A DNA stretch of 64,000 nt, taken from assembly GCF_020921035.1 (NCBI RefSeq), contig NC_063152.1, positions 11,546,001 through 11,610,000 of the forward strand. Direction: 5' to 3'. Under the pieces are notes generated by a model that worked only from the letters and a program-made list of their open reading frames with translations, ran no database searches and was not told the DNA's origin. Shown one piece after another: positions 1 to 60,510 of the stretch. Origin of the DNA: Rhodamnia argentea (lineage: Eukaryota; Streptophyta; Magnoliopsida; Myrtales; Myrtaceae). Position 1 is the first letter of the stretch; every line of letters begins with the position of its first letter. The position numbers were made by a program, and so were the translations under genes.

Positions 1-523
1 AGTGCACATGCTTTAAACATATGACAACGAAAATCAAATAAGAATTTTCACATTTTTCCAATTAAGATTGCAATCACACGCAATTCGGCGTGCGCAAGAA
101 TTCTAGTCATTTAATTTGTGGTCACATGATGGGTATCTTTAGAATATGAGTTTTTTTTCCCTCCAAAGTTCAGTCTAATCCTTAATCGAAGAGTTACACT
201 AAAATGATCATCGACATCAAATTACTAGGTAAAACTCGTACAAAATCGAGCTGCGTCACACTGGTCATGCGGGTTTTAGCCATTTAATAAATAGATAGAT
301 AAATGGAAAAGAGAGGGATATATTTGGTGGTATGCATCTCAGACAAAGGGAATTGTAGGAAAAACAAGAAAATTGATACGTATTGAGGAATTAATACGGT
401 ATTCACCTCATAACTTAGTGGCTACACTGTAGCCTCCTTACAAGTACCACACTATAAGTAGGAAAGAAGCAAGTCGGTCATCTAATGATGCTCGTACTCC
501 GTCTATATTATGTTTTGATTATC
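1..523. other. 3' flank of A1, no gene seen
   Basis: AT-rich sequence downstream of A1 (on the minus strand), matching 18360-18903, 39850-40373 and 58160-58683. It contains a short ATAG microsatellite near 290. No RNA gene or convincing ORF is visible. The 3' UTR and poly(A) site of A1 should lie here but cannot be delimited. Confidence 0.6.
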
Positions 524-1724
524 TCAGGCCACTGGATAAGAAGCTTGCGACGCGAGTCCGCACATTCCTTTCGAGCTATCAACACCTCTTTGAATCCTCA
601 TGTAGCCCTCTTCGCCCCAAGTCTGCCCCCACGAGTTGCGGATCTTCCAGAACTCGGTTCCGTCCTCGCTCGTCCCGTACCCCACCACGACCACCGCGTG
701 GTCCAGCTCCTCGCCGCAGTCGCCATTGAACACGCCACCGCTGTAGCTCTTGAACTCCTGCCCACCCGCCGCGATTCCGACCGAGATCGGCTGCTGCGCA
801 ACTGCCTTCAGGAGCTCCTCCTCACCGGGCTGCACATCGTTGAACTCTTTGATCTGCGCCGCCTGTTGAGCCGCTTTCGACGAGTCGCAGGTCCCGTCCG
901 TCCCTTGGTACGGGTAGGTATCCTCGGACGCAATTCCTCGGTTATCGATGATGTAGTTGAAAGCATTGTCTGGAAGACCACCCTCGCAGCCACTGGCTTC
1001 GGTATCGCAGTCGATCAGCTGTTGCTCGGAGAGCACTGGCAAATTACCGCTTTTGATCTGCGTGATTCCTTCTACTGCTGCGACTGCTGAGAACGCCCAA
1101 CAAGATCCTGCACTCATAAAATTTTGTTTGTCGACATTGTAAGTATGAAGAATCGCATTATTTTCGTTACCGTTGTTATCAGACTTCTCAACTCAAGATA
1201 GCTAGGCTCCTAAACTTATTGCTCAATAGTAAGTCAAAAATGATCTCCCAATTGGAAGCATGCAAGATGTTTAGACACTGACCACAATGGCCTTGGTCCT
1301 TGATCTGATTCACGGCGCCTTTCTCCACCCAGTCGATGCTATCAGGAACATCCCCAATCGGATATTGGTGGCTCAACGACCCCGTTCTGGTGGACTTGGG
1401 TTGCTTAGATGCCAAGTATCCCGTGTGGCTCCGAATGAACTCGTCGTTGGTCAAGTCCGAGAATTGATTGATGCCTACCTTGAAAGTCCGATTCCCGGAT
1501 GCAGTGAAATCTTTGATGAACTGCAAGTTCCTCTCGAAAATCTCCCGACGTCTCTCCTTCTCCTCTGGGTCCTTGTAGGTCCGACCGTATTGGGCCATCC
1601 ATTGGTCGTGCTGCTCGGCAACGGTGGATCCATGCAACGTGCGGACTGACATGACATGACATGCCCAAGTGCTGAGAATGAGAGCAAGGGAGATGATGAA
1701 TTCACTCTTGAGAGGAAAAGCCAT
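524..1724 (-). CDS. Papain-like cysteine protease A1 (SAG12/SAG39-like), intact
   Basis: Two exons: 1283-1724 (ATG at 1724) and 524-1107, with a 175-bp phase-1 intron. The product is 341 aa. Residues 1 to about 27 are a signal peptide (MAFPLKSEF, then a hydrophobic core). The I29 prodomain holds an ERFNIN-type run (E55, R59, F63, N66, I70) and GxNxFxD at 84-90, with a glycosylation sequon at N78. The mature peptidase should begin near VPDSIDW (126). Catalytic C150 (GSCWAFS), H284 (LDHAV) and N305 (NSWG) are present, with oxyanion Q144. Cysteine spacing predicts papain-type pairs C147-C188, C181-C221 and C278-C330. The splice is chosen so that TGT-G joins GA-TCT-TGC/T to restore CGSCW. The donor is GTCAGT, weaker than GTGAGT or GTAAGT in the other copies. 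There is no KDEL, so a secreted or vacuolar endopeptidase is expected. A role in senescence or protein turnover is inferred from the family. Confidence 0.92.
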
Positions 1725-1805
1725 TGCCCAATTGTAAGCAGGATGTTGTGTTCCTCAGTGGAAAAACTCAGGAAGTGGATGACGAGATACCTGAACTGGA
1801 CATGA

Positions 1806-1815
1806 ATATATATAC
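1806..1815 (-). promoter_or_regulatory. TATA box of A1
   Basis: The minus strand reads TATATATATTC about 85 bp upstream of the A1 start codon. This is a normal distance for a plant core promoter with a short leader, and the motif is kept in all four A copies. Confidence 0.7.
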
Positions 1816-2052
1816 AGAGTCTTGCTTGGGATAGCCGTCCTCTATGAGCCATGCAAAAAGTCTTACGTGGATTGTAACGTGGAAAATTTGGTTCCATGAT
1901 GGGCGGAGATACGAGTGCCGAAGCCATGCATGTCTGAACATGCGAAACTTCAGGGACAGCCGTGGAGGGCACGAGTGCTTTATTAGATTGCCTCAATCAA
2001 CTCACAACATGTCAGTCTTCTCCTCCATTAAGGATCTCTCCTAGCTCTTAAG

Positions 2053-2400
2053 CATTAAGATTCCGCGCACAAATCACAACGAAATCAAGAGTAAAAACAA
2101 GAAAAACAAAAATCGAGGCACTTGATTTATTCCGATTCACTCTTTAATTAGGACTACACCATGTAGAGAATTATACTATAATTAGCATATTCCACTTCTC
2201 TATTACAATTCTCAATTATAAAAGAAATTGATTATATATAAGCAGTAGCTACTCCTGGTCCCAAACCCGAACTACTAATAACTATATGCTCAAAACTTTA
2301 AAAGTCATATGATGTCCAGGGGGCGCTGCCTCCTACAACCCCGCCGGAACGGCTCTCCCATTCTTTCCTGTCGATTAGGAATATGAACCACATCCCAACA
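2053..2400 (-). mobile_element. Solo-LTR-like insertion upstream of A1
   Basis: On the minus strand this begins TGTTGGGATGTGG at 2400 and runs toward A1. It has a GC-rich GGCAGCGCCCC stretch, a TATATATAA box (near 2231-2240) and a segment with GTAGTCCTAATT and GTGAATCGG. This layout resembles the solo LTR inside C1, which has GTAGCCCTAATT and GTGAACCCGG. In units 2-4 the two edges are flanked by the 5-bp repeat CTGAA (minus strand); here the copies have drifted (TTGAA and CTTAA). The far end reads AATG rather than the expected CA. The G-box position at 2119-2124 is mutated to CACTTG in this copy. Confidence 0.65.
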
Positions 2401-2833
2401 TTCAATGGGATTTATGTAGGCAAATCGTGTCTAACCTTTTTTTTTTATTTATAAATTTCTGCCCTTTTAAACACTCCAACTCTCCATTTCTCCTTTGCCA
2501 GAGTCTTGAAAATGAGGGCCATCGTGATGTATTATGCACTATCTTTCGAGACTTGCTTTATCATATGGAAACAAATGATTTCTAACAACTCTAGTGCGGT
2601 TTCCACCTTTCTTGTTTCAGTGTAGTCGACTAAATCAAGACAATATCTCCTCACCTAAGTGTCTATATGGGTTGAGCTCGGGTCAAGTCCAATATGGGCG
2701 GCCCATGTCCAAAGCCCAATCTATACATATATTACGGGCATTAATACGTAGTACGCCGTATAACTAAGTGGCTAGACAGTAACCTCTTACAAGCACACAA
2801 CCATAGCAAAAAACACACGAAAAAGGATACCCT
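2401..2833. other. Spacer between A1 upstream LTR and B1
   Basis: AT-rich, non-coding sequence with a T-run near 2440. It is collinear in all four units. No gene or RNA signal is seen. Confidence 0.5.
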
Positions 2834-3275
2834 TAAGCAAATTGGATAAGAAGCTTTTGATGCGACTTCGCACATTCCTTCAGAACTATCATGGCCTCTT
2901 TGCATCCTCATGTACCCGCCTTGACCCCATGTCTCGCCCCACGAGTTCCTGTTCTTCCAGAACTCGGTCCCATCCTCGCTCGTCCCATACCCGACCACGA
3001 CGATCGTGTGGTCCCAACTTCTCATCACAATCCCCGTTGAACACGCCACCGCTATAGCTCTGGAAGTCCTAGCTGCTTGCCGCGATTATGACCGAGATCG
3101 GCTACTGCGCAGTTGCCTTCATGAGCTTGTCCTCACTGGGCGGGACATTAGTGAAATCCTTGATCTGCTCCGTGGGTTTTGCTGCTTTTGTCGTGTCGCA
3201 GTCCTGTCCATTTCTTCATATGCATAGCTATCCTCGAACGCTATTCCTTGCTTTTGGATAATGTGTAGGCCACCA
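2834..3275 (-). pseudogene. Cysteine protease pseudogene B1 (exon-2 remnant)
   Basis: Matches the C-terminal two thirds of the papain-like exon 2. Recognisable are a GIA-ED-YAYEE stretch, [18 protein letters not shown] (catalytic His region), NSWGETWG (catalytic Asn region) and an ASKASYPI ending. Two stop codons interrupt the frame around the ISVIIAASS segment, and an extra C near 3015 shifts the frame before DHTI. A further one-base insertion removes the normal stop. Homology ends at about 3275, so the exon part with catalytic Cys and all of exon 1 are missing and copia-associated sequence follows. Confidence 0.85.
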
Positions 3276-4286
3276 AAATGGCACATCCCAGGAACTTCAT
3301 AACTAGAATATGAAACACATTATGATAGAAGAAAAGAGATTTGCGCATCTAACTTAGAATCCATCAATCTTGATGTGGAATGCTGATGATTCGAAACTCA
3401 AATACTTCTCCTCTGTTCCCCTTGTTGGAACACTTGCTAAATGGAAATACCGCTCACAAATGAGTGTGTTCTTCTTTATGTGAGATAATTTGTGCATCTT
3501 ATGGTTAGAGTAGGAATTTAAGCCTTTTTTTATAAAGTTTTTAGCCATAAAACCTCTTATCACGTGTGGGAACCAACTCGGCCCACACTAGTCAACCAGA
3601 TATTGAAGTAATGAAGAATCTGTTTATCTTATCTTAATAGACCAACCCCATTAAACAGCAAATTTCAATTTCAATTAACTTACCTCACATCAGAAAAATT
3701 CTTACATTTTCCTACTTTGGCTATATTAATTGAAATTATACTATTTGCGTGTACCTTTATGTTAGTCTAGAGATTATTCTTAATAGTCAATCCGATCCCA
3801 TGAAGTTTCGGATAGCGAATCATGGTGGTAATTGCATCAATAGACACAAAGCCTTCCATGGTCCCAAATGCCTTTTTAGCTTTATTTATATGGATTCAAT
3901 AGGGTAGTATGGCAAATGAATAACATCTCACAAAAAAGTGACACTTCATGTGTTATCTCATTTGTCGATCATATTGTCTTTTCTTAAGTGTCACGAAACC
4001 CGATGTGCCACCAAAGAAATTTTTTATGGCTCCCATGAAGCCACATGTGTTTAACTTCACTTTATTTATAACCAGACATATTCATAAGGCTAATAACTAG
4101 ATGCCCTTAGCCTTCACTCAATATTTACACACTGCGTTGAGATTTTCACTATATATATCCAACTTAATAACAATGCATTCACAAATGCTTTATTGAATGC
4201 AAAAGAGTTGATACATATAAAAATATTACAAAATACAACAAACATGGATGTCAACTTTATTAGAGCAAATAACTAAACAGCTTCCA
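3276..4286 (-). mobile_element. Non-coding end of copia element, probable 3' LTR (unit 1)
   Basis: This lies between the RNase H stop of the copia remnant and the broken edge of B1. The minus strand carries AT-rich LTR-like sequence including a TTTATAAAAAA box near 3525. No ORF is supported. Exact LTR ends were not found, so the LTR assignment is inferred from position and composition. Confidence 0.45.
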
Positions 4287-6500
4287 CTAAACAACAACAT
4301 CCCTTGATGTTCCTAAGCCTATGCTAATCACATGTTGTTTAAATGCACAAGGGCAAATGCCTTTAGTTAATGGATATGCAACCATATCACCTGTGAAAAT
4401 ATGCTTTACTATAATGTGGCCATTTATAATAGTCTCCTTTATAGTCAAAAACTTAACCGCCAAATTCGTAAACCCCTTAAGACTTCTATTATTATTGATA
4501 AACAATACTGCAAAGTTATTGTCACATTACAACTGTGTAGGTCTATTCGGAAGGTCAAATATGGTCATCTCCTTCGTGAGATTCTGGACCCAAATAACCT
4601 GAGTAGAGGCTGTAAAGTATGCTATAAACTCTGCGTGCATGATAGATGATGATACAGATTTACGCTTCTCGCTTTTCCATGATATTGCATCTCTAGCTAA
4701 CACAAAGATGTATCATGTTATTGACTTCAAGTAATCTTGATAGCCAGCAAGGTCTACATCTGAATACCCTATTAGCTACATGTCTTGAATATATTTGTAA
4801 ATTAGCATATAGTCATTTGTCCTCTTTAAGTACCTTAAAACCTTGTTGGAAGCAATCTAGTGGTCATGTCCTGAATTTGACTAATGTTTGCCTAGAAGTC
4901 CTGCTGCAAAAGCAATATCAAGTCTAAAACAAAGTTGAGCATACATAATACTTCCAAGTGCATTAGTATAAGGTACATTCTTCATTGGGGCTTTTTCAAC
5001 ATCTAAATGAGGACACTGTGACAAACTTAGTTTATCACCCTTAGTGATAGGAGAAATTCTTGGCTTACAATCCTACATACCGAATCTTTCCAAAATACGA
5101 TTAATATATGTCATCTGAGATAAACCCAACACATGGCAAGAATAATCCCTATGGATCTCAATACAAAGGACTAAAGAAGCTTCACCAATGTCCTTCATGT
5201 CAAAATTCTTTAATAACATCCGCTTGGTCTCATGCAATAATCCATGATCACTACTCGCAAGCAAGATATCATCTACATAAAGTATGAGAAAAATAAATTT
5301 TCTCCCATTGGCCTTGCAGTATATACATTGATTTATTTTGTTCTCAACAAAATTGAATGAAGTGGTAACACTATGAAACTTCAAGTACCATTATTTGGAA
5401 GCCTGCTTGAGACCATAAACTGCATTTTTTGGTCTACACACAAGTTTATCCTTTCTTGCAAAACTTTTTGGTTGCACCATATTAGACTTCCTTATCAAAG
5501 TTTCCATTCGGAAAGATAGTTTTAACATCCATCTAGTGTAACTCCAAGTTAAATTAAACTTCTAATATCATGACCACTCCGAAACATTCTTTATAAGAAA
5601 CTAGGAAAAAACTAGCTTCATAGTCTACTCATTCTTTGTAAGTGAAACTCTTGGCTATCAGTTTGGTTTTAAACTTCACAAGCTTTTCTTTGGAGGCTCT
5701 TTTATTCTCGTACAACCATTTGCAGCTGATGGGCTTATAACATCCAAACAATTTAACAAGTTTCCAAACACCATTATGTTTCATAAAGTGCATCTCATCT
5801 TTCATTGCATCTAGCTACGGATCTAACTAAGGACAAGAAATAGCATCTGCATAAGTCACTAGAACAACCACACAACCGATATTGTAGTCATACTCTCCCA
5901 TATAGACTATATAGTATGGTGATATAGCCGATCATCTCTCCATGATGGATCTCCCGAGTAGAGCAACAATAACCTCATCCGACACCTAAGAGGCTTGAAG
6001 AACTTCATCGGGAGCTGTCTCACCAACATGATTCTAGATCTCAATAGGTTCAATCTATGGTGTGGGAGGAGACATTATCCTTTGTATAGGGAGTAAAAAA
6101 GATACGGTAGTACCCACCATACTATTATCCTCAATGGTGTATGAGCAGTTATCTTTTTTCGGCCACATCAAACTTTAGAAATTTCGTTGTCTATGATTCC
6201 ATGATTCTTGATCCTCCATTAAGATTATGAAAATGACATCCCTTTGAATGATTTGGGTAAGATACGAAATAATGCCTAGTGATTTTGGACTCCAATTTAC
6301 TCAAAGTTGGATTATATAACTTCACTTCTCCAGGACATCTGAAACCTTAAGATAGTTCAAGCTAGATTTACATCCAGTTCATAACTCAAAAGGAATCAAT
6401 GAAACAACTATGGTAGGTACACGATTTTAGAATATACATCTTCAAAGCTTTAGCCCAATGAAAAATAAGTAAATTAGTCCTACTAATCATACTCTTCACC
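4287..6500 (-). mobile_element. Degenerate Ty1/copia pol remnant (unit 1)
   Basis: Read leftward from about 6500, the minus strand gives a linker seen in copia polyproteins (EVKLYNPTLSKL), the start of the reverse transcriptase (CKW-YENKRASKEKLVKFK), the RT active-site motif YVDDILL (near 5270) and FDMKD-GEAS. It ends with an RNase H tail (HIFTGDMVAYPLTKG at about 4330-4380). Many stops and frameshifts rule out a functional polyprotein. Gag, protease and most of the integrase are absent. Confidence 0.88.
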
Positions 6501-8165
6501 ACCGGTCACGCTCCCTTGCCGGCGATCGTCAAGTTTGACAGCCACATTCCCATATCATTTCAATTCCTTGAGGTCATCCTTGGTAAAACCTAATTCATGG
6601 CAGGTTTGAGGTTTGGTGCAATTTATGTGGTGATTTGATTTTGTTCCATAGTTTCAAATGCATGTTATTTAGAAGTAAGACCTTAAATTATATCATTATA
6701 TTTTGATTATCTCCTTGCATTAATTAAGGCAATGTTTGGGCGTTGGACCGTTGATCCTAAAGTTGGATCCTTAATATTGTCTCTTGAGTGCTGTTATGCT
6801 TGAATGATTAAAATTTAATTACATTAAAGTTATATGTCATTGACTTATATTGGTTGATTTGCATAAGACATATATTTGGGTGTATTATAAGATTTATTAG
6901 GTATCACATTGCACACTTAGAACTTCGGGTGCTTCACAATTCATATTTAGAACAATGGATGTTCATTTTAGAATTCATATTAGGATAGCCTATACTTTTC
7001 ATAGAATTCATGTAGGCACATAATTAGTTAGTCCCATCACATGCGGATCGCATATTACACGTCATTTAGTGAGTCACATTATTTAATGGTAATGTTTTAA
7101 TAAAATCTCATGTAGATAGATTAATAATTGCATCTCATGCATTATTCACATTGAATATAGTCTACATATTGTTAAAAAAAAACACCAAAAAGAAATTAGC
7201 ATTGTATCACCTCGTCACCACTTTTTAAATAAAAGGCGATAAGACATGTTTAGTGAACTGCGGTTTAATTCTTTAATATTTAATAACGTTTTTGTATGTA
7301 TTAATTGAAGTTATGTACATGATTTAAATTAACCATAGATCATGTTTATAGAGAGTTTTAATAAAAAGCCGTATTGTCATGATTAGTTGTCCTTGTATAA
7401 TTACATTTAGGAGTCATAATTAGGACATTCATATATCACACCATTGTCTGTTCTTATAGTCAAAATCTGTAGAATCACTATTGCATTGGATGGTGGTGAA
7501 CCTTTGCTTTTGTTTGCTTAGTGCATCCAAGTTCTTTAATCTTTTCGAGTAATTTAGTTCTTGCTTTCAATTTTTGAGTATTACCATTCCTAATAATGTA
7601 CCCGCATAATGACCCGACATGTTAGTGGTTAAGGATTAAAATTGATAGAGATTGCTTGCAAAACATTTTCAAAATAAAAGGAAAATGTATCGAAATGACA
7701 ATAGATTTATCTTGTGTAGTCCGTAGTCTATAGTAGTAAAATGTACACTCGCATTTTTTACTTGAGTATCTAATCGACTCAGAATCGATAAGTGGCAACT
7801 CCTAAATAAATTGAACTGCATGTTAGAAATGGTTTGATTGAAACTCGAAGTTGCAATTGGTATGGCTTTGAGAGAGTCTGCGCTAGGCAACGACACTATC
7901 TCTTTGATGAGTAACTGTTCGTACCCGCCTAGCCATGAATTAGATCTCCCTTGGTAGTTCACCTTGAGGAAGGTTGCGAAGTCGAGTTGCCTACTCCTCA
8001 AACGTAGTCACGGACGACATGTCGTAGGTACTAGACGCACCATCCGATGCACAAGCATCCAAGATAAGTGTCAAGTATAAGGAGAGTTTTTGCAAGCCAT
8101 TTGAATTTCAATGAAGAGGTATGTTTTTGTCGCGGAGAACAAGGGATGCATTAGCTGTGTGTATG
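6501..8165. other. AT-rich spacer without recognisable gene (unit 1)
   Basis: Collinear with 28531-29830 in unit 2 and 46171-47857 in unit 3. A short plus-strand open stretch (around 6500-6650, FTTGHAPLPAIVKFD) and a 110-codon minus ORF (7669-8001) exist. Neither resembles a known protein, and both differ among units with many amino-acid changes. It is probably transposon-derived or plain intergenic DNA. Confidence 0.5.
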
Positions 8166-8990
8166 GAAGTGATTGTGAAATTGATTGATTGGAGCAAATT
8201 GACCGCAAAGAAAGTTGGTGATGACCGAGGTCAATGCTTATTGTTTTCTCTACGAGTGCGTGTTGAACATATTGTCCAAAAGTCAAAAAAAAAAAAAAAA
8301 AAAGAAAAGGTACGTTGATGGTGCCTTGATCTTTCTCCGGCTTCGATTAGGGTTTGTTCACACCTAGGAAAAGATGTTTCCGTGACCATTTCTTGGGTAA
8401 ACGGAACTGTATTGGTTTGAAAATGTTTCTAATTATAGAACTAGAGTGGTCCGAAAATGTCTCTAATTATATTATACTTTTCTACTGTTCAATGCCTTTA
8501 TTGACCTAAACTGATAAATTCAGTTAATTTGAATTAATGGAAAGATAACATCGAGCATTTTTATTTAATCTAGGAACTAGATTGATTAGATATCAAAAGT
8601 TCAGGGATGATATTGCTTGTTGAGCCAAAATGTAGAGTTCATTTGTGCAATTATCTCTTTATAGAAGTGAACGTGAAATTGATAGATTGGAGCAACTTGA
8701 CCGCAAAGAATGTTGGTGATGACTATGGTCAATGTTCATTGTTTACTCTAGGAGTGCGCGTTGCACATGTGGTCCAAAAGCTAAACGAGAAAGAGGTACG
8801 TCAATGGTTCCTTGATCTTTCTCTGGCTTCAATTAGAGCTTGTTCACACTTAGGAAAAGTAACACGTGTCAGAATTCAAGGAAAATTCTTGTAAAGCTAG
8901 ATAGAACAAGATTGGTCTGAAAATATCTCTAATTATATTCTATTTTTTCTTGTTGCACTTTTCTACGATTTAAATGCGTTTATTGGCTGA
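8166..8990 (+). repeat. Diverged tandem pair of ~330-bp repeats (unit 1)
   Basis: Copy 1 (8166-8506) and copy 2 (8664-8990) are direct repeats. Both start GAAGTGA-CGTGAAATTGAT and share GGAGCAA-TTGACCGCAAAG, CTTGATCTTTCTC, a TTGTTCACAC segment and a TCTCTAATTATATT segment. Each has a short plus-strand open frame around KLIDWS-LTAK. The poly(A) run after copy 1 (about 8285-8305) varies among units. The function is unknown. Confidence 0.7.
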
Positions 8991-9835
8991 TAAAAGCAAG
9001 CAAAAGTAACGCGTGTAAGAATTCAAGGAAGATAGATGTGTGTGTGTGAAAGAGAGAGAGAGCATGTGTTTTAGGTGTGGAACCGACTTTTATTTTGAAC
9101 CTTCGAGTTTTTTTTTAAATTGTTTATTTTAAAAATTTGATAGAAAAGTCATGAAGTAATATTTTTTTTCGCTTAAAATAAGCCAAAACACATGATAAAT
9201 TGTAGACTAATTGATACCTACCGTGTTTCGCCCGAGTGAAATGTTTCTGCAAAAACTTAATGAGAATACCAGTTAGCAAATAATTAAGTAAAAGCACCAT
9301 ATGCGCACGGGTCACCATTGGGCCTATGGCGTGCATCTGAGTCACCGTTGACATGGAATCTCTTACCATGTATCAATCTCTGATTAGTCCACGTTTCAAT
9401 GGCGTGACGCACTTGTCCCATGCGTCTTGTCATCGTCGGACATGGCACTCCCAAGTCGGATTGTCACCTGCGACAGGCAATGTGCTTATGTGATAGGTCT
9501 TTATTTAATATGAGATTGACAACATGTCGTGGATCGCAACAGATTAATAATAAATAATAAAAAATTATCGTGAAGTTCACTCTTTCAAAAATTTGTGACT
9601 CGCGACATGTTATTTTCACAGTCATCAAAATACTATCATACTAGCAAAGTCCACTTTATGAAATCACACCTCAAATCTTAAGAACCAAAAATTGCTCTAC
9701 GTAATGCTCGTGTATCCGTGCCGGTCGAAAGTGCCATCACGCACTCGGAATAACACTCGTAAGCCCACCACCCCACAAAACAACCCCCACCCCAGTCTTT
9801 TAAGTAAGCATTTTCCTATTTTGATTATTGTGATA

Positions 9836-9870
<35 letters not shown>

Positions 9871-10096
9871 AGGATTTTGTCAACGTAACAATTGTGTGTA
9901 TATATATGATTAATTAGGATTTTATAGCGTAACAGTCTTTTGGGTGACTGAGAAAGTAACAATATATTGTGGGGCACAAATTCAAAAACGAGTAGGTCAT
10001 ACAAATTTTTTTAATTTTTTATGGCATTGAACATGTTGTAAATCTAACGGTGGGTTAACGATAGTCACGTAACCATTTCTCTTGTGATTATTATCC
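8991..10096. other. Intergenic region between repeat pair and C1
   Basis: Contains short TG and GA runs near 9040-9060 and a (TA)n tract at 9839-9867. A ~720-bp stretch found in units 2 and 3 is missing here: the join is at about 9278, where AAAAGC meets ACCATATG. A ~280-bp stretch (9706-9987) is present only here. No gene is recognised. Confidence 0.55.
9839..9867. repeat. (TA)n microsatellite
   Basis: Uninterrupted TA dinucleotide run of about 14 units, found only in unit 1. Confidence 0.95.
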
Positions 10097-11671
10097 TCAA
10101 GCAATTGGATAAGAAGCTTTCGATGCGAGTCCACACAACCCTTTAGAACTACCACCGCCTCTCCGAATCTTCATGTAACCGCCTTCACCCCATGCCTCGC
10201 CCCACGGGTTCCTCATCTTCCAGAACTCGGTTCCGTCGTCGCTTGTCCCGTACCTCGAACATGAAGACGGCGTGGTCCAGCTGCGACCTGCAATCCCCAT
10301 TGAACACGCCGAGCCTATAGCTCTGGAACTCCCGCCCGCTCGCCGCGATGACAACCACGACGGGCTACGTCAAGACCGCCTACATGAGCTTGCCCTCACC
10401 GGGCAGCACGTCCGCGAATCCCTTGATCCGCTCCGCGTGTTCTGCTGCTTTCATTGCGTTGCAGGCCCTGTCGAGCTCATGGTACGCATAGTTATCCTCG
10501 GACGCGATTCCTCGGTTTCGGATAATGTACCTGAAAGCGTTGTCCGGGTAGCCTCCTCTGCACCCGTCGCTTGTGGTGTCACGATCTCTCAGTTGTTGCT
10601 CGGAGAGCACTCGCAGTTTGCCTCTTGTGATCGCTACAGTTCCTTCCACTGATGCTACGACTGAGAATGCCCAACAGGATCTAAAGAAAACTGTAATACG
10701 TAGGTTCTAAGTCACACACATATGCTTAAATTTCCGAAAAGTATATATATTTCGTTAAATACCTACTTGTTCACTATATGAAAGAAAAGGTACGACACAT
10801 TCACAACATTTGTACTTACCACACCTGCCTTGATACTTAATCATGTTTACGGCGCCTTTCTCTACCCAGTCGATGTCGTCGAGAACACCTCCAGCCAGAT
10901 TTTGGTGGCTAAACCACATCGTTTCGGCGGGCTCTGGTCTCTTAGGTGTAACATATCCTGTATGGCTTCGGACGAACTCCTTGTTGGTCAAGTCCGAGAA
11001 TCGGTTGAAACCTGACTCTTGAAGGGATTTATCGAAACCGAATCAGACGATCACACGGAGAATCAAGAAAAATTGGAATGACGCACGAGATTACCCGGGT
11101 TCACCCCAAAATTAGGGCTACGTCCTGCAAAGAGATTTTACTATATTTTTTCGGTTTACAGCCAATTCGCACTTACATAATGATAAAACCAAGCAAAATA
11201 TATATGCCCCAAAAGCGGAACCCCCGTCGGGAGGCGCTGCCCCCGGACCCCCACCCGCCGACCGGGCAGCGGGACACCCGTGTTGGGGGCGCTGCCCCAG
11301 AACCCCCGCATCCCCCGCGCAGGGGTCACATGTCTTTGGGTAATACTTCAGTTTCCCTAAGCTCACGTGGGCATACCCGGTGTGAGAAACAAGAGTCCCC
11401 GAAGTATTCGCCAACTCCAACAACTCTTAAGTACAACCCCCGGACTTGTTGAAGTCTGCAATGAACTGCAAATTCTCGGAGAAAATCACCTGGCGTTTCG
11501 CCTTCTCCCGAGAGGGCCCTCGTAGGTCCGAACTTATTCAGCCATCCATCGCTCGTGCCGCTCGGCAATGGAGGGCTCATGCAACGCGCGGACCGACGTC
11601 GCATGCCCCGCCCAAGCGCCAAGAATTAGAGCAAGGGAGATGCTGATTTCACTCTTGATCGAGAAAGCTGT
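10097..11671 (-). pseudogene. Cysteine protease pseudogene C1, split by a solo LTR
   Basis: Exon 2 is 10097-10680 and exon 1 runs from 10820 to about 11671. SCWAFS, a GGYPDNAF segment and an ASKASYPIA ending are visible. Lesions shared with C2 and C3 are: the start ATG position is ACA (ATA in C3), a frameshift after TYKGP, a TAG before PVVVV where A has a Gln, and an acceptor reading TAG-ATCC that lacks the G needed to keep CGSCW in frame. Lesions private to C1 are a TAA after WMAE, an extra T near 10255 shifting the catalytic-His region, NSWG changed to NPWG, and the LTR insertion at 11020-11422. Confidence 0.9.
11020..11422 (-). mobile_element. Solo LTR (copia-type) inserted in C1
   Basis: A 403-bp insertion with TG...CA termini (minus strand TGTTGGAG ... 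CCCTTCA) and a perfect 5-bp target duplication, ACTCT on the plus strand at 11015-11019 and 11423-11427. C2 and C3 keep the uninterrupted site with one ACTCT. The inside has GC-rich GGCAGCGCC blocks, a TATATATATTT box and a GGACGTAGCCCTAATT segment typical of the downstream part of plant copia LTRs. No internal coding region remains, hence solo. Confidence 0.88.
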
Positions 11672-12343
11672 CGCGTGAACACTTTCTTCTGTGAATGTGT
11701 TTTCTTCCTCTCCTGAGTGTGATATTTTGAAGTGGATGCGATGAGATAGCTGCACTAGAGATGTATATTTCTAGGCCGCTTCATAATCAGGTCATACCAA
11801 AAAAAAAAAAAAATTGCTTTAATTTTAAGGTATAAAATTTATTCCCCAGTTCACATTCTCTGCGGAAATATGAATCACAAGCTATGCATGTCCGAACACT
11901 TTGAGAGATATCGTGTACATATGCCACATGATATATGCATTACTAACAGCATCGAATTTTTCATCACGCCAATGTGAAGTGAAATTTACGTTTCGCACGG
12001 ACTCTCTCAAACCCTACGAATCACAACTCAATTTCTCAAACATTATGAATTTAGGTGAAACTAGAACCGTCACTAACCTACTCTAAGCTGGTTAGAAGTC
12101 AAGTAAAGTAGGGGATTCTGCTTTAAGTTTTCGAACCAGAAATTTTAAATTCGAGGACTTAGTAATGTCGGTTTTAGCTAATGTCTACTGCTGGCAGCGC
12201 TTTTCTTTTTGGAAAACATTCTTTCACGTAATCTTTTATTTACTTATTTTTATCTCTAAACATGTAAAACTAAAGTGGTCATGCAAGAATGTTCAAACAA
12301 TAAAATCAAGCAATAGTATAATAGTCTTTGGATGACCGTGAGT
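11672..12343. other. 5' flank of C1
   Basis: The upstream side of C1 on the minus strand. It includes a poly(A) run near 11800 and AT-rich sequence collinear with 33143-33814 and 51465-52104. No gene is supported. Confidence 0.5.
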
Positions 12344-12525
12344 AGGGGTGTCAAAACCAAGCCCAAAAACCGAACCGAATCTAGAACCGAACCGAAGCGA
12401 ACCGAAAATTTTGCACATTTCGGTTCGGTTCGATTTAGAGTTTGGATAATGAAAAATAACCATTCTTTATTTTTTAGTTCAGATTATTTTGGTTTGGTTT
12501 GTTCAATTAACTGAACCGCGGATCG
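12344..12525. repeat. AACCGAACCG / CGGTTCGGTT repeat tract (unit 1)
   Basis: Begins with TAGGGGTGTCAAAACC and continues with irregular AACCGAA repeats. Their inverted form (TTCGGTTCGG) follows about 60 bp later, so the tract can fold back. Such tracts occur in plant DNA transposon ends; no partner terminus is seen here. Confidence 0.6.
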
Positions 12526-12595
12526 AAATATCTTCTTTCTTTTTAATATTAGCCATTTGGAAAAAATAATCATATTTTTTTATCCCAACGACAAT

Positions 12596-13718
12596 GGCTG
12601 TGTTTGGAAAGACTCTTAGGGAAAGCCTTTGGAAAAATGCAAATACCTTTGGTGTGAAGGGATTTGGTGAAATGCAAAAGTTGTTTGGTAAACTGTAATT
12701 AAAAAGTGCCTTCAAATGAAAGTTTGGGAAAATGTTGTTTGATAAACATAAATTCGCAAATACCTTTAGCTGAGTATTTTAATATCTTTTTATGATTTTT
12801 GTATAATTTTTGTTTTTTCTTTTTCTTTTTCTTTCCCTTCCCCAACCCTTCCCCACTTGAAAATTGTCGTCAACCACAAGAACAAACCCTCGAGATTTGA
12901 CCATCATCCTCACTCGAAACAATACTATTCACGTTGTGGGTCACCCCTTCCATCGCTCTGTTTTTCTTTGATTGACTCTGTTCTTCTTGCGACGTCACTC
13001 TCCATCTCGGTTCTACTACTTTGGGTGACGGAAGGAAGTTTGGAACAGGGGAGAGACAGAGCTTGACACTAACCAAGACGTTAGGGAGAGATTGGTTGAA
13101 TCGGTCGGCAGGTCTAAGGGGTGACGCATATGGTGACCAGATCTGGGCTTGCAAGGGCTCGACCTCACTCGGCCATGGGAGGGCTCGACCTCTCCGTCGA
13201 CGGGTGAGGCAGCGACGGCGAGGTCGAGCCCTCACAAGCCTAGATCTGGTGAGGCGGGGCGAATTGGGATCGTGGGGAGGAGGGGACAGTTGTCGTGGCG
13301 AAGGGCGTGGAAAGGTGGCTCAATGCTAGCGGTGCCTGCGGCGGCGGCATTTGGCAGCAGCATCCTAGACTGCGCTTACGGCGGTGGCATTCAGCAGCAA
13401 CCTTCTGGTGGGGCCGAAGGCGAAGGGAGCAGTGGGAGAGGGGAAGACAAATTATGAATAGTGAGGGTAAATGTGGAATTATGAAGACTGAGTAAGGGTA
13501 ATATTGAGAATTCAAAAAATTCACTAATCCTTGATACTGTTGTCTGCCGAGAATGCTGGAAGCTCAAGGTAGCCTTGAAGCTGCCTTGGGCTTTCAGCCT
13601 TTTGAAGGCTCACTTTGAGCCAAGGATGTTTTCAAAAAATTTGCCAAACACCAAAAACTTTGCCCTAGGAGCTTTGGACACTCACAGCCCATTGGGAAAG
13701 TGGTTCCCAAATGCAACC
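12596..13718. mobile_element. Non-autonomous inverted-repeat DNA transposon, PIF/Harbinger-like (unit 1)
   Basis: Ends are GGCTGTGTTTGG on the left and the complement of GGTTGCATTTGG on the right; in units 2 and 3 the two ends agree better (GGCTACGTTTGG and GGCTGCGTTTGG). Both sides are flanked by AAT, fitting a 3-bp target duplication. The GC-rich middle contains an inverted repeat (about 13140-13170 against 13218-13247) around the AGATCT and GGGCTCGACCTC words. No transposase is present. The family call rests on the termini and flank size only. Confidence 0.6.
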
Positions 13719-14340
13719 AATATCATCTATCTTGCTCGCGGTCCCATTCCTAGAGTCATGATGACCTTGGGAGTGATGTCTGATTTCCAGAGCGACTAGT
13801 CGCCGAGGTCGGAGTCCGACAATGCTGTCTCGTCGGCCTCGCCAGAGAGGCAGATCATCGTCGTGAACCAGCTCCCCTTGTGAGCCCATCAGGACAAGCA
13901 GACCGGGAAGTGGAGGTTCGAGTGGGACTCGAATAGCCTGGTGGTGTTGCAGCTCAAGGACGGGCTGAGACCCGATGCCATCTCGACGGCCTCGCCGGAG
14001 CAGCGGATCTTCGTCGCGAACCAGCTCCTCGTGCGAGCCCATCAGGAGAAGCAGACTGGGAAGTACAGGTTCGAGTGGGACCTGGACAGCCTGGCGGTGT
14101 TGTAGCTCAAGGACAGGCTGAGACCCTTAGTCGTGGTCATGTACATTAGCTCTTTGAAGGCTGACATTAACGTCAGCGATCAGGAGGAGGTCTCGCAGTT
14201 CCCGTTCAAGTCGTTCCGGTGCGTGCCGATGTTCTTGCCTCTAGATATGCAGAACCAGTTCTACCATGGCTATTGCAAGCACTATCTCTGGCCTCTGTTT
14301 CACTGCACGTTGCCCACGTTGCCGAGCCAAGATGCAACAG
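13719..14340 (+). pseudogene. Class II trehalose-phosphate synthase-like fragment (unit 1)
   Basis: Plus-strand translation resembles the N-terminal part of plant class II TPS proteins (GT20 domain): IPRVMMTLGVMSD, a Ser/Asp-rich linker, QIIVVNQLPL, FEWD-NSLVVLQLKDGL, then [32 protein letters not shown] and [10 protein letters not shown]. An exact 153-bp (51-codon) tandem duplication covers the NQLPL-to-LKDGL stretch (offset 13891 to 14044). Stops occur after DFQSD, after NQLPL and in the second copy at LAVL. It begins directly at the transposon edge and ends in an A-rich run, so it is a captured or retroposed fragment. Confidence 0.82.
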
Positions 14341-14416
14341 TGACGCCAAATTTGAAACAAAAAAGGAAAAGAAAAAAAAGGAAAAATAGAAAGGAATACC
14401 AAAAAACCGAATCGAT

Positions 14417-15910
14417 GGTTTCCTCCATTTGTCGGGCAGTTAATCAGCTGTTGCTCGGACAAGTTGGGTAGTACACCGGTTGTTATCGCGGTGATCGATT
14501 CCACAGCATCGGCTGTTGAGAATGACCAGCAAGATCCTATACGAGGATTAAAACAAGGATTGCAACGATGGTTATAGCTTGTGTATGTATCTATGAAGAT
14601 GGAATAAATACCGGACTAAAGTTATAGTGTATAACTCAGAATCACTAGGATTGAAGTTACATTAAAAAATATTTCTCATGTACTAGGCGCGGAGGGTGCC
14701 ATAGAAATGCGATTCAATTCGCAGCGTGCGATGATGTGGTTTGAACTTTAATGTTTGATGACCTATTTTGAATAGGTATATAGTTTAGTTTTATAGAGAC
14801 CAACCAAGACTCACTAGCTTACATGACAAGATAATGAAATTGGTACAAATTCTTCAACTAATAGGCCCATTGAATTGCACAGTTTCGAACCACTTAAGTA
14901 CGTTTGTTTCTTGAAAAACATTTCCCTAAAAACAGTTGCTTTTAATGTTTGAAGTAGTTAATCAATGAAAGACGTTTTCATTATCAACGACGAATTTATG
15001 GCTAACTCTCTTTATTGACAATGGAATTAATTTTCTTTCAATTATTTTTGTAAGAGATATAAATAATAATTATATACAAATATGTTTCAAAGCATTTATT
15101 TTTCTCTAAATAAACACACTCTCGGAGATAAATGTAAATGTGTTGACGAAATACTATTTTAGGACCCGTCTCTTATCGCCATATGCTATAGAATTTGCTT
15201 CTTCAATGATTAAATTGCTTTTCCGGGTTTAGGTAATACATGTCTGTTCAATATTTTCAAGCCTTATAAAGAATATTCAGTGCATTCATATGATTTTTTT
15301 TTTTTGCAAACAAAATCACAAGACAAGAAAAATATTGGGTTAAGAACACGAGAATATTATATTGTTTCGCTTGCTTTGGAATGAAAAAAATAAATAAATC
15401 ACAAGACAAGAAAATAAAGTGCCTATTCGCAATAATATAGTATGATTCTATTACTTTCTTACCACATGTACCCTGGAATTTTATGCTGCCAACAACTCCC
15501 CGATCAACCCAGTTTACGCTATTCGGGACTTGGGTCACATTTTGGTACTTGAAAGTATTCACTGCTGATGAATTCGAGCTCTTCGACCTAGGCCGGAACC
15601 CGGTGTACCTCGCGATGACCTCGCCCATGGTCAAATCCGAAAATTGGTTTAGACCCACTTTGTAGCTTCGTTTAGTCGCTTCGTGGTTGAAGTCTTCGAT
15701 GAAGCGCAAGGTCTCTAGAAAGATCCCGTACCGCTTCGCCTTCTCGAGATTATCTGTGTAGTTCCGTCCATGGCGGGCCATCCACTGCTCGAACTCCGCC
15801 TCCACGAGTGTGGAATTCGAGGATGCCGCGGCCAAAATCTGAGCCCCTAAACATACCGATGCTGCCAACATGTATACCTTAATTTGTCTCTCGATCCATA
15901 AAGCCATCAT
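14417..15910 (-). pseudogene. Cysteine protease D1: intact prodomain exon, truncated catalytic exon
   Basis: Exon 1 (15463-15910) is fully open. It has MMALW, a hydrophobic signal segment, FEQWMARHGRNY, an I29 prodomain with FLETLRFIEDFN and GLNQFSDLT, and ends at FQGTCG with donor GTAAGA. The predicted exon 2 starts at 14536 with GSCWSFS, so catalytic Cys is present, and runs through LSEQQLINC. It then leaves homology around 14417, where A-rich sequence and the TPS-like fragment follow. His and Asn are absent. If the 926-bp intron is retained, a 217-aa prodomain-only protein results. Confidence 0.85.
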
Positions 15911-15999
15911 CGAATGCTGAAGCGTTTATCAAGGATGCATTGATGGATGGCTAGTGTGCTTTCGGGGAAATGTGGAGAAACATGGGCAAGCCATGTCTA

Positions 16000-16006: not shown

Positions 16007-16010
16007 GAAC

Positions 16011-18903: not shown

Positions 18904-20104
18904 TCAGGCCACTGGATAAGAAGCTTGCGACGCGAGTCCGCACATTCCTTTCGAGCTATCAACACCTCTTTGAATCCTCATGTAGCCCTCTTCGCCCCAA
19001 GTCTGCCCCCATGAGTTGCGGATCTTCCAGAACTTGGTTCCGTCCTCGCTCGTCCCGTACCCGACCATGACCACCGCGTGGTCCAGCTCCTCGCCGCAGT
19101 CGCCATTGAACACGCCACCGCTGTAGCTCTGGAACTCCTGCCCACCCGCTGCGATTCCGACCGAGACCGGCTGCTGCGCAACTGCCTTCAGGAGCTCCTC
19201 CTCACCGGGCTGCACATCGTTGAACTCTTTGATCTGCGCCGCCTGTTGAGCCGCTTTCGACGAGTCGCAGGTCCCGTCCGTCCCTTGGTACGGGTAGGTA
19301 TCCTCGGACGCAATTCCTCGGTTATGGATGATGTAGTTGAAAGCATTGTCTGGAAGACCACCCTCGCAGCCACTGGCTTCGGTATCGCAGTCGATCAGCT
19401 GTTGCTCGGAGAGCACTGGCAAATTACCGCTTTTGATCTGCGTGATTCCTTCTACTGCTGCGACTGCTGAGAATGCCCAACAAGATCCTGCACTCATAAA
19501 ATTTTGTTTGTCGACATTGTAAGTATGAAGAATCGCATTATTTTCGTTACCGTTGTTATCAGACTTCTCAACTCAAGATAGCTAGGCTCCTAAACTTATT
19601 GTTCAATAGTAAGTCAAAAATGATCTCCCAATTGGAAGCATGCAAGATGTTTAGACACTCACCACATTGGCCTTGGTCCTTGATCTGATTCACGGCGCCT
19701 TTCTCCACCCAGTCGATGCTATCAGGAACATCCCCAGTCGGATATTGGTGGCTCAACGACCCCGTTCTGGTGGACTTGGGTTGCTTAGATGCCAAGTATC
19801 CCGTGTGGCTCCGAACGAACTCGTCATTGGTCAAGTCCGAGAATTGATTGATGCCTACCTTGAAAGTCCGATTCCCGGATGCAGTGAAATCTTTGATGAA
19901 CTGCAAGTTCCTCTCGAAAATCTCCCGACGTCTCTCCTTCTCCTCTGGGTCCTTGTAGGTCCGACCATATTGGGCCATCCATTGCTCGTGCTGCTAGGCA
20001 ACGGTGGATCCATGCAACGTGCGGACTGACATGACATGCCATGCCCAAGTGCTGAGAATGAGAGCAAGGGAGATTATGAATTCACTCTTGAGAGGAAAAG
20101 CCAT
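18904..20104 (-). pseudogene. Papain-like cysteine protease A2, nonsense-disrupted
   Basis: Same two-exon structure as A1: 19663-20104 and 18904-19487, with a strong donor GTGAGT. Codon 37 (Glu GAG in the other copies) is TAG at 19994-19996, giving a 36-residue product that is essentially the signal peptide. Everything downstream stays open with catalytic Cys, His and Asn intact, so this lesion looks recent. The next in-frame ATG (19978, MAQYGRTY) would give a product without signal peptide and with a shortened prodomain. A sequencing error or allelic variant should be considered. Confidence 0.88.
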
Positions 20105-20432: not shown

Positions 20433-20780
20433 CATTAAGATTCCGCGCACAAATCACAACGAAATCAAGAGTAAAAACGAGAAAAATAAAAATCGAGGCA
20501 CGTGATTTATTCCGATTCACCCTTTAACTAGGACTACGTCCTCTAGAGAATTACACTATAATTAACATATTTCACTTCTCTATTACAATTCTCAATTATA
20601 AGAGAAATTGATTATATATAAGCAGTAGCTACTCCTGGTCCCAAACCCGAACTACCAATAACTAGACGCTCAAAACTTTAAAAGTCATATGATGTCCAAG
20701 GGGCGCTGCCTCCTACAACCCTGCCGGAACGGCTGTCCCGTTCTTTCCTGTTGACTAGGAATATGAACCACATCCCAACA
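20433..20780 (-). mobile_element. Solo-LTR-like insertion upstream of A2
   Basis: 348 bp, the same element as at 2053-2400. The minus strand starts TGTTGGGATGTGG at 20780. Flanking 5-bp repeats are TTCAG (plus strand) at 20428-20432 and 20781-20785, both exact. The GC-rich block and TATATATAA box are retained. Confidence 0.68.
20499..20504. promoter_or_regulatory. G-box CACGTG upstream of A2
   Basis: Palindromic CACGTG about 395 bp upstream of the A2 ATG, inside the LTR-like insertion. A3 has it too (41969-41974). A1 and A4 have CACTTG instead. G-boxes bind plant bZIP and bHLH factors; activity here is not shown. Confidence 0.5.
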
Positions 20781-31976: not shown

Positions 31977-33142
31977 TCAAGCAATTGGATAAGAAGCTTT
32001 CGATGCGCGTCTGCACAACCCTTTAGAACTACCACCGCCTCTCCGAATCTTCATGTAATCGCCTTCACCCCATGCCTCGCCCCGCGAGTTCCTCATCTTC
32101 CGGAACTCGGTTCCATCCTCGCTTGTCCCGTACCCCAGCATGAAGACGGCGTGGTCCAGCTGCGACCTGCAATCCCCATTGAACACGCCGAGCCTATAGC
32201 TCTGGAACTCCCGCCCGCTCGCCGCGATGACAACCACGACGGGCTACCGCAAGACCGCCTTCACGAGCTCGCCCTCGATGGGCAGCCCGTCCGCGAATCC
32301 CTTGATCCGCGCTGCGTGTTCTGCTGCTTTCATTGCGTTGCAGGTCCTGTCAAGCTCATGGTACGCATAGTTATCCTTGGACGCAATTCCTCGGTTTCGG
32401 ATAATGTACCTGAAAGCGTTGTCAGGGTAGCCTCCTCTGCACCCGTCGCTTGTGGTGTCACGATCTCTCATTTGTTGCTCGGAGTCCACCCGCAGTTTGC
32501 CGCTTGTGATTGCCACAATTCCTTCCACTGATGCTACGACTGATAATGCCCAGTAGGATCTGAAGAAAACTGTAATACATAGGTTCTAAGTCACACACAT
32601 ATGCTTAAATTTTCGAAAAGTATATATATTCCGTTAAATACCTACTTGTTCACTATATGAAAGAAAAGGTCCGACACATTCACAACATTTGTACTTACCA
32701 CACCTGCCTTGATACTTAATATTGTTTACGGCGCCTTTCTCTACCCTGTCGATGTCGTCAGGAACACCTCCAGCTAGATTTTGGTGGCTGAACCACATCG
32801 TTTCGGCGGGCTCTGGCCTCTTAGGTGTAACATATCCCGTATGGCTTCGGACAAACTCCTTGTTGGTCAAGTCCGAGAATCGGTTGAAACCTGACTCTTA
32901 AGTACGACCCCCGAACTTGTTAAAGTCTGCAATGAACTACAAGTTCTCGGAGAAAATTACCTGGCGTTTCGCCTTCTCCCGAGTGGGCCCTTGTAGGTCC
33001 GAACATATTCAGTCATCCATTGCTCGTGCCGCTCGGCAATGGAGGGCTCATGCAACGCGCGGACCGACGTCGTATGCCCCGCCCAAGCGCCAAGAATTAG
33101 AGCAAGGGAGATGCTGATTTCACTCTTGACCGAGAAAGCTGT
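31977..33142 (-). pseudogene. Cysteine protease pseudogene C2
   Basis: Exon 2 is 31977-32559 and exon 1 runs from about 32712 to 33142. It carries the shared C lesions: no start ATG, frameshift after TYKGP, TAA in the prodomain before ESGFNRFSDLT, TAG before PVVVV, and an acceptor one base short. Private changes hit the active site: the catalytic Cys codon is TAC (SYWALS) and NSWG is NSRG. An extra TAG stands where C1 and C3 read LQFIADF. The C1 solo-LTR site is empty here. Confidence 0.9.
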
Positions 33143-40373: not shown

Positions 40374-41574
40374 TCAGGCCACTGGATAAGAAGCTTGCGA
40401 CGCGAGTCCGCACATTCCTTTCGAGCTATCAACACCTCTTTGAATCCTCATGTAGCCCTCTTCGCCCCAAGTCTGCCCCCACGAGTTGCGGATCTTCCAG
40501 AACTTGGTTCCGTCCTCGCTCGTCCCGTACCCGACCACGACCACCGCATGGTCCAGCTCCTCGCCGCAGTCGCCATTGAACACGCCACCGGTGTAGCTCT
40601 GGAACTCCTGCCCACCTGCCGCGATTCCAACCGAGACCGGCTGCTGCGCAACTGCCTTCAGGAGCTCCTCCTCACCGGGCTGCACATCGTTGAACTCTTT
40701 GATCTGCGCCGCCTGTTGAGCCGCTTTCGACGAGTCGCAGGTCCCGTCCGTCCCTTGGTACGGGTAGGTATCCTCGGACGCAATTCCTCGGTTATGGATG
40801 ATGTAGTTGAAAGCATTGTCTGGAAGACCACCCTCGCAGCCACTGGCTTCGGTATCGCAGTCGATCAGCTGTTGCTCGGAGAGCACTGGCAAATTACCGC
40901 TTTTGATCTGCGTGATTCCTTCTACTGCTGCGACTGCTGAGAATGCCCAACAAGATCCTGCACTCATAAAATTTTGTTTGTCGACATTGTAAGTATGAAG
41001 AATCGCATTATTTTCGTTACCGTTGTTATCAGACTTCTCAACTCAAGATAGCTAGGCTCCTAAACTTATTGCTCAATAGTAAGTCAAAAATGATCTCCCA
41101 ATTGGAAGCATGCAAGATGTTTAGACACTCACCACATTGGCCTTGGTCCTTGATCTGATTCACGGCGCCTTTCTCCACCCAGTCGATGCTATCAGGAACA
41201 TCCCCAGTCGGATATTGGTGGCTCAACGACCCCGTTCTGGTGGACTTGGGTTGCTTAGATGCCAAGTATCCCGTGTGGCTCCGAACGAACTCGTCGTTGG
41301 TCAAGTCCGAGAATTGATTGATGCCTACCTTGAAAGTCCGATTCCCGGATGCAGTGAAATCTTTGATGAACTGCAAGTTCCTCTCGAAAATCTCCCGACG
41401 TCTCTCCTTCTCCTCTGGGTTCTTGTAGGTCCGACCGTATTGGGTCATCCATTGCTCGTGCTGCTCGGCAACGGTGGATCCATGCAACGTGCGGACTGAC
41501 ATGACATGCCATGCCCAAGTGCTGAGAATGAGAGCAAGGGAGATTATGAATTCACTCTTGAGAGGAAAAGCCAT
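40374..41574 (-). CDS. Papain-like cysteine protease A3 (SAG12/SAG39-like), intact
   Basis: Exons 41133-41574 (ATG at 41574) and 40374-40957 give 341 aa with a consensus donor GTGAGT. Signal peptide, I29 prodomain (ERFNIN-type and GINQFSD), QGQCGSCWAFS, LDHAV and NSWG are all present. It differs from A1 at a few sites: Trp for Cys in the signal region, T43 and N52 in the prodomain, V96, Q267, T270 and K299. The frame is also open upstream to 41706, but that extension would cross the TATA box, so the ATG shared with A1 and A2 is chosen. With a good donor and a G-box upstream, this is the best candidate for an active copy. Confidence 0.93.
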
Positions 41575-41902: not shown

Positions 41903-42250
41903 CATTAAGATTCCGCGCACAAATCACGACGAAATCAAGAGTAAAAACGAGAAAAACAAAAATCGAGGCACGTGATTTATTCCGATTCACCCTTTAATTA
42001 GGACTACATCCTGTAGAGAATTATGCTATAATTATCATATTTCATTTCTCTATTATAATTCTCAATTATTAGAGAGATTGATTATATATAAGCAGTAGCT
42101 ACTCCTGGTTCCAAATCCGAACTACCAATAACTATACGCTCAAAACTTTAAAAGTCATATGGTGTCCAGAGGGTGCTGCCTCCTACAACCCCGCCGGAAC
42201 GGCTCTCCCGTTCTTTCCTGTCGACTAGGAATATGATCCACATCCCAACA
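41903..42250 (-). mobile_element. Solo-LTR-like insertion upstream of A3
   Basis: 348 bp with exact TTCAG (plus strand) repeats at 41898-41902 and 42251-42255. The minus strand begins TGTTGGGATGTGG and runs toward A3. It contains the G-box at 41969-41974 in its downstream part. Confidence 0.68.
41969..41974. promoter_or_regulatory. G-box CACGTG upstream of A3
   Basis: Same position in the LTR-like insertion as in A2, about 395 bp upstream of the ATG; mutated to CACTTG in A1 and A4. Confidence 0.5.
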
Positions 42251-58683: not shown

Positions 58684-59880
58684 TCAGGCCACTGGATAAG
58701 AAGCTTGCGACGCGAGTCCGCACATTCCTTTCGAGCTATCAACACCTCTTTGAATCCTCATGTAGCCCTCTTCGCCCCAAGTCTGCCCCCACGAGTTGCG
58801 GATCTTCCAGAACTTGGTTCCGTCCTCGCTCGTCCCGTACCCGACCACGACCACCGCGTGGTCCAGCTCCTCGCCGCAGTCGCCATTGAACACGCCACCG
58901 CTGTAGCTCTGGAACTCCTGCCCACCCGCCGCGATTCCGACCGAGACCGGCTGCTGCGCAACTGCCTTCAGGAGCTCCTCCTCACCGGGCTGCACATCGT
59001 TGAACTCTTTGATCTGCGCCACCTGTTGAGCCGCTTTCGACGAGTCGCAGGTCCCGCCCGTCCCTTGGTACGGGTAGGTATCCTCGGACGCAATTCCTCG
59101 GTTATGCATGATGTAGTTGAAAGCATTGTCCGGAAGACCACCCTCGCAGCCACTGGCTTCGGTATCGCAGTCGATCAGCTGTTGCTCGGAGAGCACTGGC
59201 AAATTACCGCTTTTGATCTGCGTGATTCCTTCTACTGCTGCGACTGCTGAGAATGCCCAACAAGATCCTGCACTCATAAAATTTTGTTTGTCGACATTGT
59301 AAGGATTAAGAATCGCATTATTTTCGTTACCGTTGTTATCAGACTTCTCAACTCAAGATAGCTAGGCTCCTAAACTTATTGCTCAATAGTAAGTAAAAAA
59401 TGATCTCCCAATTGGAAGCATGCAAGATGTTTAGACACTTACCACATTGGCCTTGGTCCTTGATCTGATTCACGGCGCCTTTCTCCACCCAGTCGATGCT
59501 ATCAGGAACATCCCCAGTCGGATATTGGTGGCTCAACGACCCCGTTCTGGTGGACTTGGGTTGCTTAGATGCCAAGTATCCCGTGTGGCTCCGAATGAAC
59601 TCGTCGTTGGTCAAGTCCGAGAATTGATTGATGCCTACCTTGAAAGTCCGATTCCCGGATGCAGTGAAATCTTTGATGAACTGCAAGTTCCTCTCGAAAA
59701 TCTCCCGACGTCTCTCCTTCTCCTCTGGGTCCTTGTAGGTCCGACCGTATTGGGCCATCCATTGCTCATGCTGCTCGGCAACGGTGGATCCAACGTGCGG
59801 ACCGACATGACATGCCATGCCCAAGTGCTGAGAATGAGAGCAAGGGAGATTATGAATTCACTCTTGAGAGGAAACGCCAT
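58684..59880 (-). pseudogene. Papain-like cysteine protease A4, frameshifted after the signal peptide
   Basis: Exons are 59443-59880 and 58684-59267, donor GTAAGT. Compared with A1, four bases are missing near 59791 (GGATCCAACG instead of GGATCCATGCAACG). The frame starting at MAFPLKSEF shifts after SVRTL and ends at 59635. The downstream protease frame is open from an alternative ATG at 59824 (MGMACHVGPHV), giving prodomain and peptidase with Cys, His and Asn but no signal peptide. Either a pseudogene or a copy with a relocalised product; the first is more likely. Confidence 0.87.
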
Positions 59881-60161: not shown

Positions 60162-60510
60162 CAATAAGATTCCGCGCACAAATCATAACGAAATCAAGAG
60201 TAAATACAAGAAAAACAAAAATCGAGGCACTTGATTTATTGTGATTCACCCTTTAATTAGAACTACATCCTGTAGAGAATTACACTATAATTAGCATATT
60301 CCACTTCTCTATTACAATTCTCAATTATAAGATAAATTGATTATATATAAGCAATAACTACTTCTAGTCCCAAACCCAAACTACCAATAACTATACGCTC
60401 AAAACTTTCAAAGTCATATGGTGTCCAGCGGGGCGCTGCCTCCTACAACCCCGCCGGAACGGCTCTCCCGTTCTTTCCTGTCGACTAGGAATATGATCCA
60501 CATCCCAACA
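60162..60510 (-). mobile_element. Solo-LTR-like insertion upstream of A4
   Basis: 349 bp with exact TTCAG (plus strand) flanks at 60157-60161 and 60511-60515. The G-box position is CACTTG (60228-60233), as in A1. Confidence 0.66.

Follow-up and report, generated by a model that had tools for sequence, protein, structure and literature searches.

Each of four papain-type cysteine protease genes in a tandem array (A1-A4) is preceded by a sequence resembling a long terminal repeat (LTR) that points toward the gene, which raises the question of whether the element was recruited to drive A or was carried along when the locus was copied. We consider it very probable that an old solo LTR was copied with the surrounding unit and is now unconstrained, and that A would have its own proximal promoter.

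The tandem units and the LTR before each A gene

The window, that is the whole stretch of 64,000 nucleotides analysed here (contig C3:11546001-11610000), was examined together with the genome from which it comes (346.7 Mb, 74 contigs). It consists of four tandem units (1-18359, 18360-39850, 39851-58159 and 58160 to the end) of 18-21 kb each, with boundaries that we set from a self-comparison of the window, in which the units align over many kilobases. They carry papain-type protease genes and gene fragments (Pfam Peptidase_C1 and Inhibitor_I29), and the best-scoring solved relatives of the protease are plant papain-type proteases. A further C-type match lies approximately 30 kb past the window (G000:C3:11639878-11640317, L014), so the array extends further. 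Unit 1 also holds a pair of direct repeats, each about 200 bp long (8162-8373 and 8660-8859), approximately 81% alike and 498 bp apart, and Rfam returned no matches at gathering score. The four A genes are as follows.

524..1724, minus strand: A1, intact papain-type cysteine protease gene (341 aa; one 175-bp intron)
18904..20104, minus strand: A2, nonsense codon at residue 37
40374..41574, minus strand: A3, intact (341 aa)
58684..59880, minus strand: A4, frameshifted by a 4-bp deletion in exon 1

Copies of types B and C carry stops in their tblastn matches, and D is visible in pieces. The statement in an earlier, sequence-only reading that A is the only locus type with surviving copies holds in that intact copies were seen in A alone among A, B and C, but just two of the four A genes (A1 and A3) are intact and A2 and A4 are broken despite the LTR. 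The LTR copies and their flanking target repeats lie at the following positions.

2053..2400, minus strand: solo Copia-type LTR before A1 (348 bp; TGTTGGGATG...CTTAATG)
2048..2052, minus strand: decayed target repeat CTTAA, 3' side of the A1 LTR
2401..2405, minus strand: decayed target repeat TTGAA, 5' side of the A1 LTR
20433..20780, minus strand: solo LTR before A2 (348 bp; CTGAA at 20428-20432 and 20781-20785)
41903..42250, minus strand: solo LTR before A3 (348 bp; CTGAA at 41898-41902 and 42251-42255)
60162..60510, minus strand: solo LTR before A4 (349 bp; CTGAA at 60157-60161 and 60511-60515)

The earlier description of an LTR-like sequence of about 350 bp upstream of A1-A4 and directed toward the gene is thus confirmed, with 348-349 bp per copy and 328 bp separating it from the ATG, except in A4, where the distance is 281 bp. 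The TG start, TATA stretch and GC-rich block described for it are all present. All four copies begin with TGTTGGGATG and so with TG, whilst the end reads CTTAATG in units 1-3 and CTTATTG in unit 4, with CA in none of the four. Target repeats of CTGAA had been called exact in units 2-4, and they are exact on both sides in these three of the four units and decayed in unit 1, where the pair reads TTGAA/CTTAA; an exact 5-mer repeat at LTR-like spacing occurs at 0.18% of window positions, or at 2.8% when ±10 bp of slack is allowed (20,000 sampled positions). No internal retrotransposon sequence adjoins the A LTR. Decayed pieces of a Copia reverse transcriptase (5073-5390 and 5629-5814, minus strand; RVT_2 match E 4e-21, the second piece at 5e-6 falling below the curated cut-off; 2/5 pieces scanned) are found in unit-shared DNA apart from it.

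Family identity and the unusual terminus

A genome search with the A LTR gave 41 matches from the 40 of 538 candidates that were scored, comprising the four in the window (93-100% identity), 36 distinct places elsewhere and one second piece (38 bp, 92%). Whether similar LTRs occur elsewhere in the genome had been set as a check on the original call, and they do, at no fewer than 36 places outside the window (contigs C1-C11; 69-78% identity to the A LTR), counts that are lower bounds and include many matches spanning only part of the 348 bp. Twenty-four of the 36 were read with their flanks. CA stands at the plainly aligned 3' position in 12 of these 24, and a short end search recognised an end in 22, of which 17 finish in CA (10 as TCCTAACA), a proportion biased by the choice of seven accepted end patterns, four of them ending in CA, after the aligned ends had been seen, the unadjusted figure being 12/24. 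The two relatives whose end was unrecognisable (L030 and L033) were left out of the count of flanking repeats. Flanking 5-mers match at four or five positions in 11 of the 22 relatives compared with 17 of 462 mismatched pairs (3.7%; binomial P 8e-11); exact repeats number four among the relatives, one of them TTTTT, and two among the 462 controls. In one of the 24 relatives (L035) TGGTATCAGAGCC begins 2 bp past ...TCCTAACA, which we take to be a primer binding site of the tRNA-iMet (tRNA-Met) type, as for Copia elements.

A second LTR in the window provides a further comparison.

11020..11422, minus strand: solo LTR inside C1 (TG...CA; AGAGT at 11015-11019 and 11423-11427)
32894..32898, minus strand: empty site, single AGAGT, in C2
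51216..51220, minus strand: empty site, single AGAGT, in C3

The resemblance of a segment of the A LTR to this element, suggested from the sequence at the outset, was borne out, the downstream half of the A LTR being homologous to the C1 LTR (nhmmer E 1.4e-8) with local scores of 69-81 that exceed every shuffle (maxima 33-38 in 300 dinucleotide shuffles per copy). Since C2 and C3 retain empty sites, the C1 LTR is a separate insertion that postdates the duplication; the A LTR is the older of the two. Unit 2 also contains a 3630-bp insertion (24768-28397; TGTTGACACC...GTCGCGACA) with GATTT on each side, at whose place unit 1 has a single GATTT and unit 3 AATTT, the window stopping short of it in unit 4. 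No long terminal direct repeats were found inside this insertion, and it might be a solo LTR of large size.

The A LTR can be classed as a solo LTR from an old Copia-type family, the choice of Copia over Gypsy being based on its short length, the 5-bp repeat, the primer site of a relative and resemblance to the C1 LTR (LTRs alone being compared). It shares with plant Ty1/Copia solo LTRs the TG start, the TATA stretch, the 5-bp target repeats and the dispersed relatives, for the most part with CA ends and in one case with a primer site of the tRNA-Met type, and it departs from them in its own AATG end and in the age and divergence of its relatives (69-78%).

The AATG terminus had been taken to weaken the LTR call. 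The non-CA end is real, but the relatives ease that doubt: with CA at most of their recognisable ends, AATG most plausibly derives from CA by decay, and because three copies share AATG and the fourth is one base off, the change would have preceded the duplication. Non-TGCA LTR families of the TGTT and AACA types, in which a whole family shares the unusual terminus, are described for Rosaceae (PMC5659011), and as presented there they resemble the A LTR in combining a non-CA terminus with a target repeat. Here, by contrast, CA closes 17 of the 22 ends recognised among relatives, and AATG would represent decay of one insertion before the duplication. A TG...TG terminus as a trait of this family was rejected on the CA endings of most relatives (17/22; 12/24 unadjusted).

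A probable single insertion followed by duplication

The LTR and both of its flanks sit at the same base in all four units. As the surrounding unit was duplicated as a whole, the four copies are not independent of one another, and one insertion followed by segmental duplication of the whole unit suffices to place an LTR before every A gene. The placement before the four A genes is, as far as these alignments tell, inheritance from one insertion. Four independent insertions at one hotspot would account for the fourfold presence and for that alone, and would have had to agree in base position, target repeat and non-CA terminus and to share kilobases of homologous flank, a coincidence so improbable as to be negligible; independent insertion before each gene was accordingly rejected on the duplication of the whole unit.

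A Copia-type LTR retrotransposon would thus have entered the upstream region of the ancestral A once, at a distance of approximately 330 bp and before the tandem duplication, duplicating CTGAA at the target. The solo LTR presumably arose when the element's two LTRs recombined, and the unit of 18-21 kb, LTR included, would then have been duplicated to give the four A-bearing copies. The LTR would now be decaying like unconstrained DNA, having no regulatory effect, and any transcription of A would start from the gene's own proximal TATA promoter.

Searches of the same genome with A exon 1 plus promoter and with the distal flank found no empty site for the A LTR. The former returned four close matches, the rest being C-type at 73-77% together with one 62-bp match on contig C9, and revealed no fifth A gene; the latter was found only beside the four LTRs, save for one 45-bp match on contig C7. 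Nor was an empty site seen in the paralogue C, where homology to A gives out approximately 215 bp upstream of the ATG and does not extend as far as the LTR (beyond this point the comparison is with C2 only).

Promoter homology, constraint and any influence of the LTR on A

LTR insertions reportedly drive neighbouring plant genes in blood orange (Ruby), apple (MdMYB1) and grape (VvMYBA1), where expression is said to follow the insertion. The A LTR is likewise upstream of its gene and in the same direction. It differs from these cases in that A has its own TATA stretch, the LTR looks unconstrained and the locus is known here from sequence alone. A literature search found no paper joining solo LTR, tandem duplication, cysteine protease and Copia, and none on a solo LTR with blood orange Ruby. 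Two features of the interval between LTR and gene bear on the comparison.

1725..2052, minus strand: A1 LTR-to-ATG region (the approximately 215 bp nearest the ATG homologous to the region upstream of C)
1807..1814, minus strand: A1 proximal TATA stretch, 90 bp before the ATG

The proximal TATATATA is present in all four copies at -90 (-86 in A4). Compared with the 700 bp upstream of C, the LTR-to-ATG region of A scores 67-95 where shuffle maxima are 34-47, with 0/200 shuffles reaching the observed score in each of 12 comparisons, and 138 of 191 bases are identical in the A2/C2 alignment. The homology is one of the region, the TATA box itself aside, C2 reading AAATATA instead of TATATATA at the aligned place. 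Scores against the DNA upstream of C2 were at chance level for the LTR (in all four copies), for the distal flank and for the part past -215, and a profile of the A LTR found no match upstream of C1-C3. Between 59880 and 60162 the A4 upstream region has a 43-bp alignment gap directly upstream of the proximal TATA, in a gene that is also frameshifted.

Divergence was averaged over the six unit pairs. It reaches 7.1% in the LTR compared with 4.0% in the proximal promoter, 3.7% in the distal flank, 5.0% in each of two stretches beyond it, 1.5% in exons and 1.8% in the intron. The A gene including its intron differs by 1.5-1.8% between units, with a rough synonymous divergence of 2.4-3.3%, against 5.5-5.6% for the whole unit (units 1/2 and 1/3) and 4.1% for the part shared with unit 4. 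Between units, the gene with its intron (524-1724 and copies) diverges two to three times less than the unit does overall, and this low divergence points to gene conversion focused on A, whether or not selection also acted. Because such conversion would make the LTR look fast beside the gene, we used unit-wide windows as the yardstick. Among 348-bp windows of the unit the divergence of the LTR stands at percentiles 0.67 (units 1/2), 0.72 (units 1/3) and 0.95 (units 1/4), a negative outcome for conservation of the LTR relative to neutral sequence. Its longest invariant run, 21 bp, was reached in 4736 of 5000 shuffles, and no conserved block was found inside it across the four copies. All four copies keep the TATA stretch of the LTR unchanged, which counts against an unconstrained reading. 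As far as four copies can tell, in a region that itself shows signs of gene conversion, the LTR appears to be without sign of constraint, changing at or above the usual rate of the unit. Unit 4 is mosaic in this neighbourhood: in 2401-4158 and its copies it is close to unit 3 just past the LTR (2/321 differ) and to unit 2 at 2843-3264 (2/421), whereas its LTR differs from those of units 2 and 3 by 28/348, the change lying near the LTR edge.

These observations bear directly on the proposal that A owes its survival to promoter or enhancer sequence from the LTR. Co-option of the LTR as a promoter or enhancer keeping A1 and A3 alive fits its orientation, its position 328 bp from the ATG, its unchanged TATA stretch in all four copies and the restriction of intact copies to A when B and C matches carry stops. 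Yet A2 and A4 are defective despite carrying the LTR, the promoter nearest the ATG has its homologue in the paralogue C, where no such LTR lies upstream, and the LTR diverges at the background rate or faster. An unspliced leader beginning 31 bp past the LTR TATA would moreover be 438-485 nt long and contain 11-15 upstream ATGs. We regard co-option as very unlikely. With one insertion plus duplication explaining the placement, a C-homologous promoter, no sign of constraint on the LTR, and A2 and A4 dead in its presence, the LTR as driver of A is not supported by these comparisons, though an enhancer or a silencing/epigenetic effect on A is possible.

The LTR might instead act as a methylated element that dampens or modulates A, a reading that assumes the same origin of the LTR, so that confidence in it overlaps that in an inherited solo LTR. 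C>T/G>A singletons number 24 at 135 G+C sites of the LTR against 105 at 1236 control sites (remaining non-coding positions within 1725-5876; p 0.0015, four units), other changes being equal between the two (p 0.78), and such an excess fits cytosine deamination in methylated DNA. With three units only, however, it lies at just the 86th percentile of 176 windows, and methylation of the LTR need not touch the gene. We consider this modulation unlikely. That a methylated LTR would make A switchable or dampened, its capture in a duplicating unit having spread one epigenetic control element to four copies, seems to us decidedly improbable.

The preferred reading is that the A LTR is an ordinary, old Copia-type solo LTR which, to judge from the shared flanks, was multiplied by segmental duplication. 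Repeated association of an element with a gene within a tandem array is weak evidence of co-option, as a single insertion followed by duplication yields a perfect association. Together the A LTR in its four copies, the younger C1 LTR and the 3.6-kb insertion in unit 2 form a small natural series that orders insertions relative to duplications.
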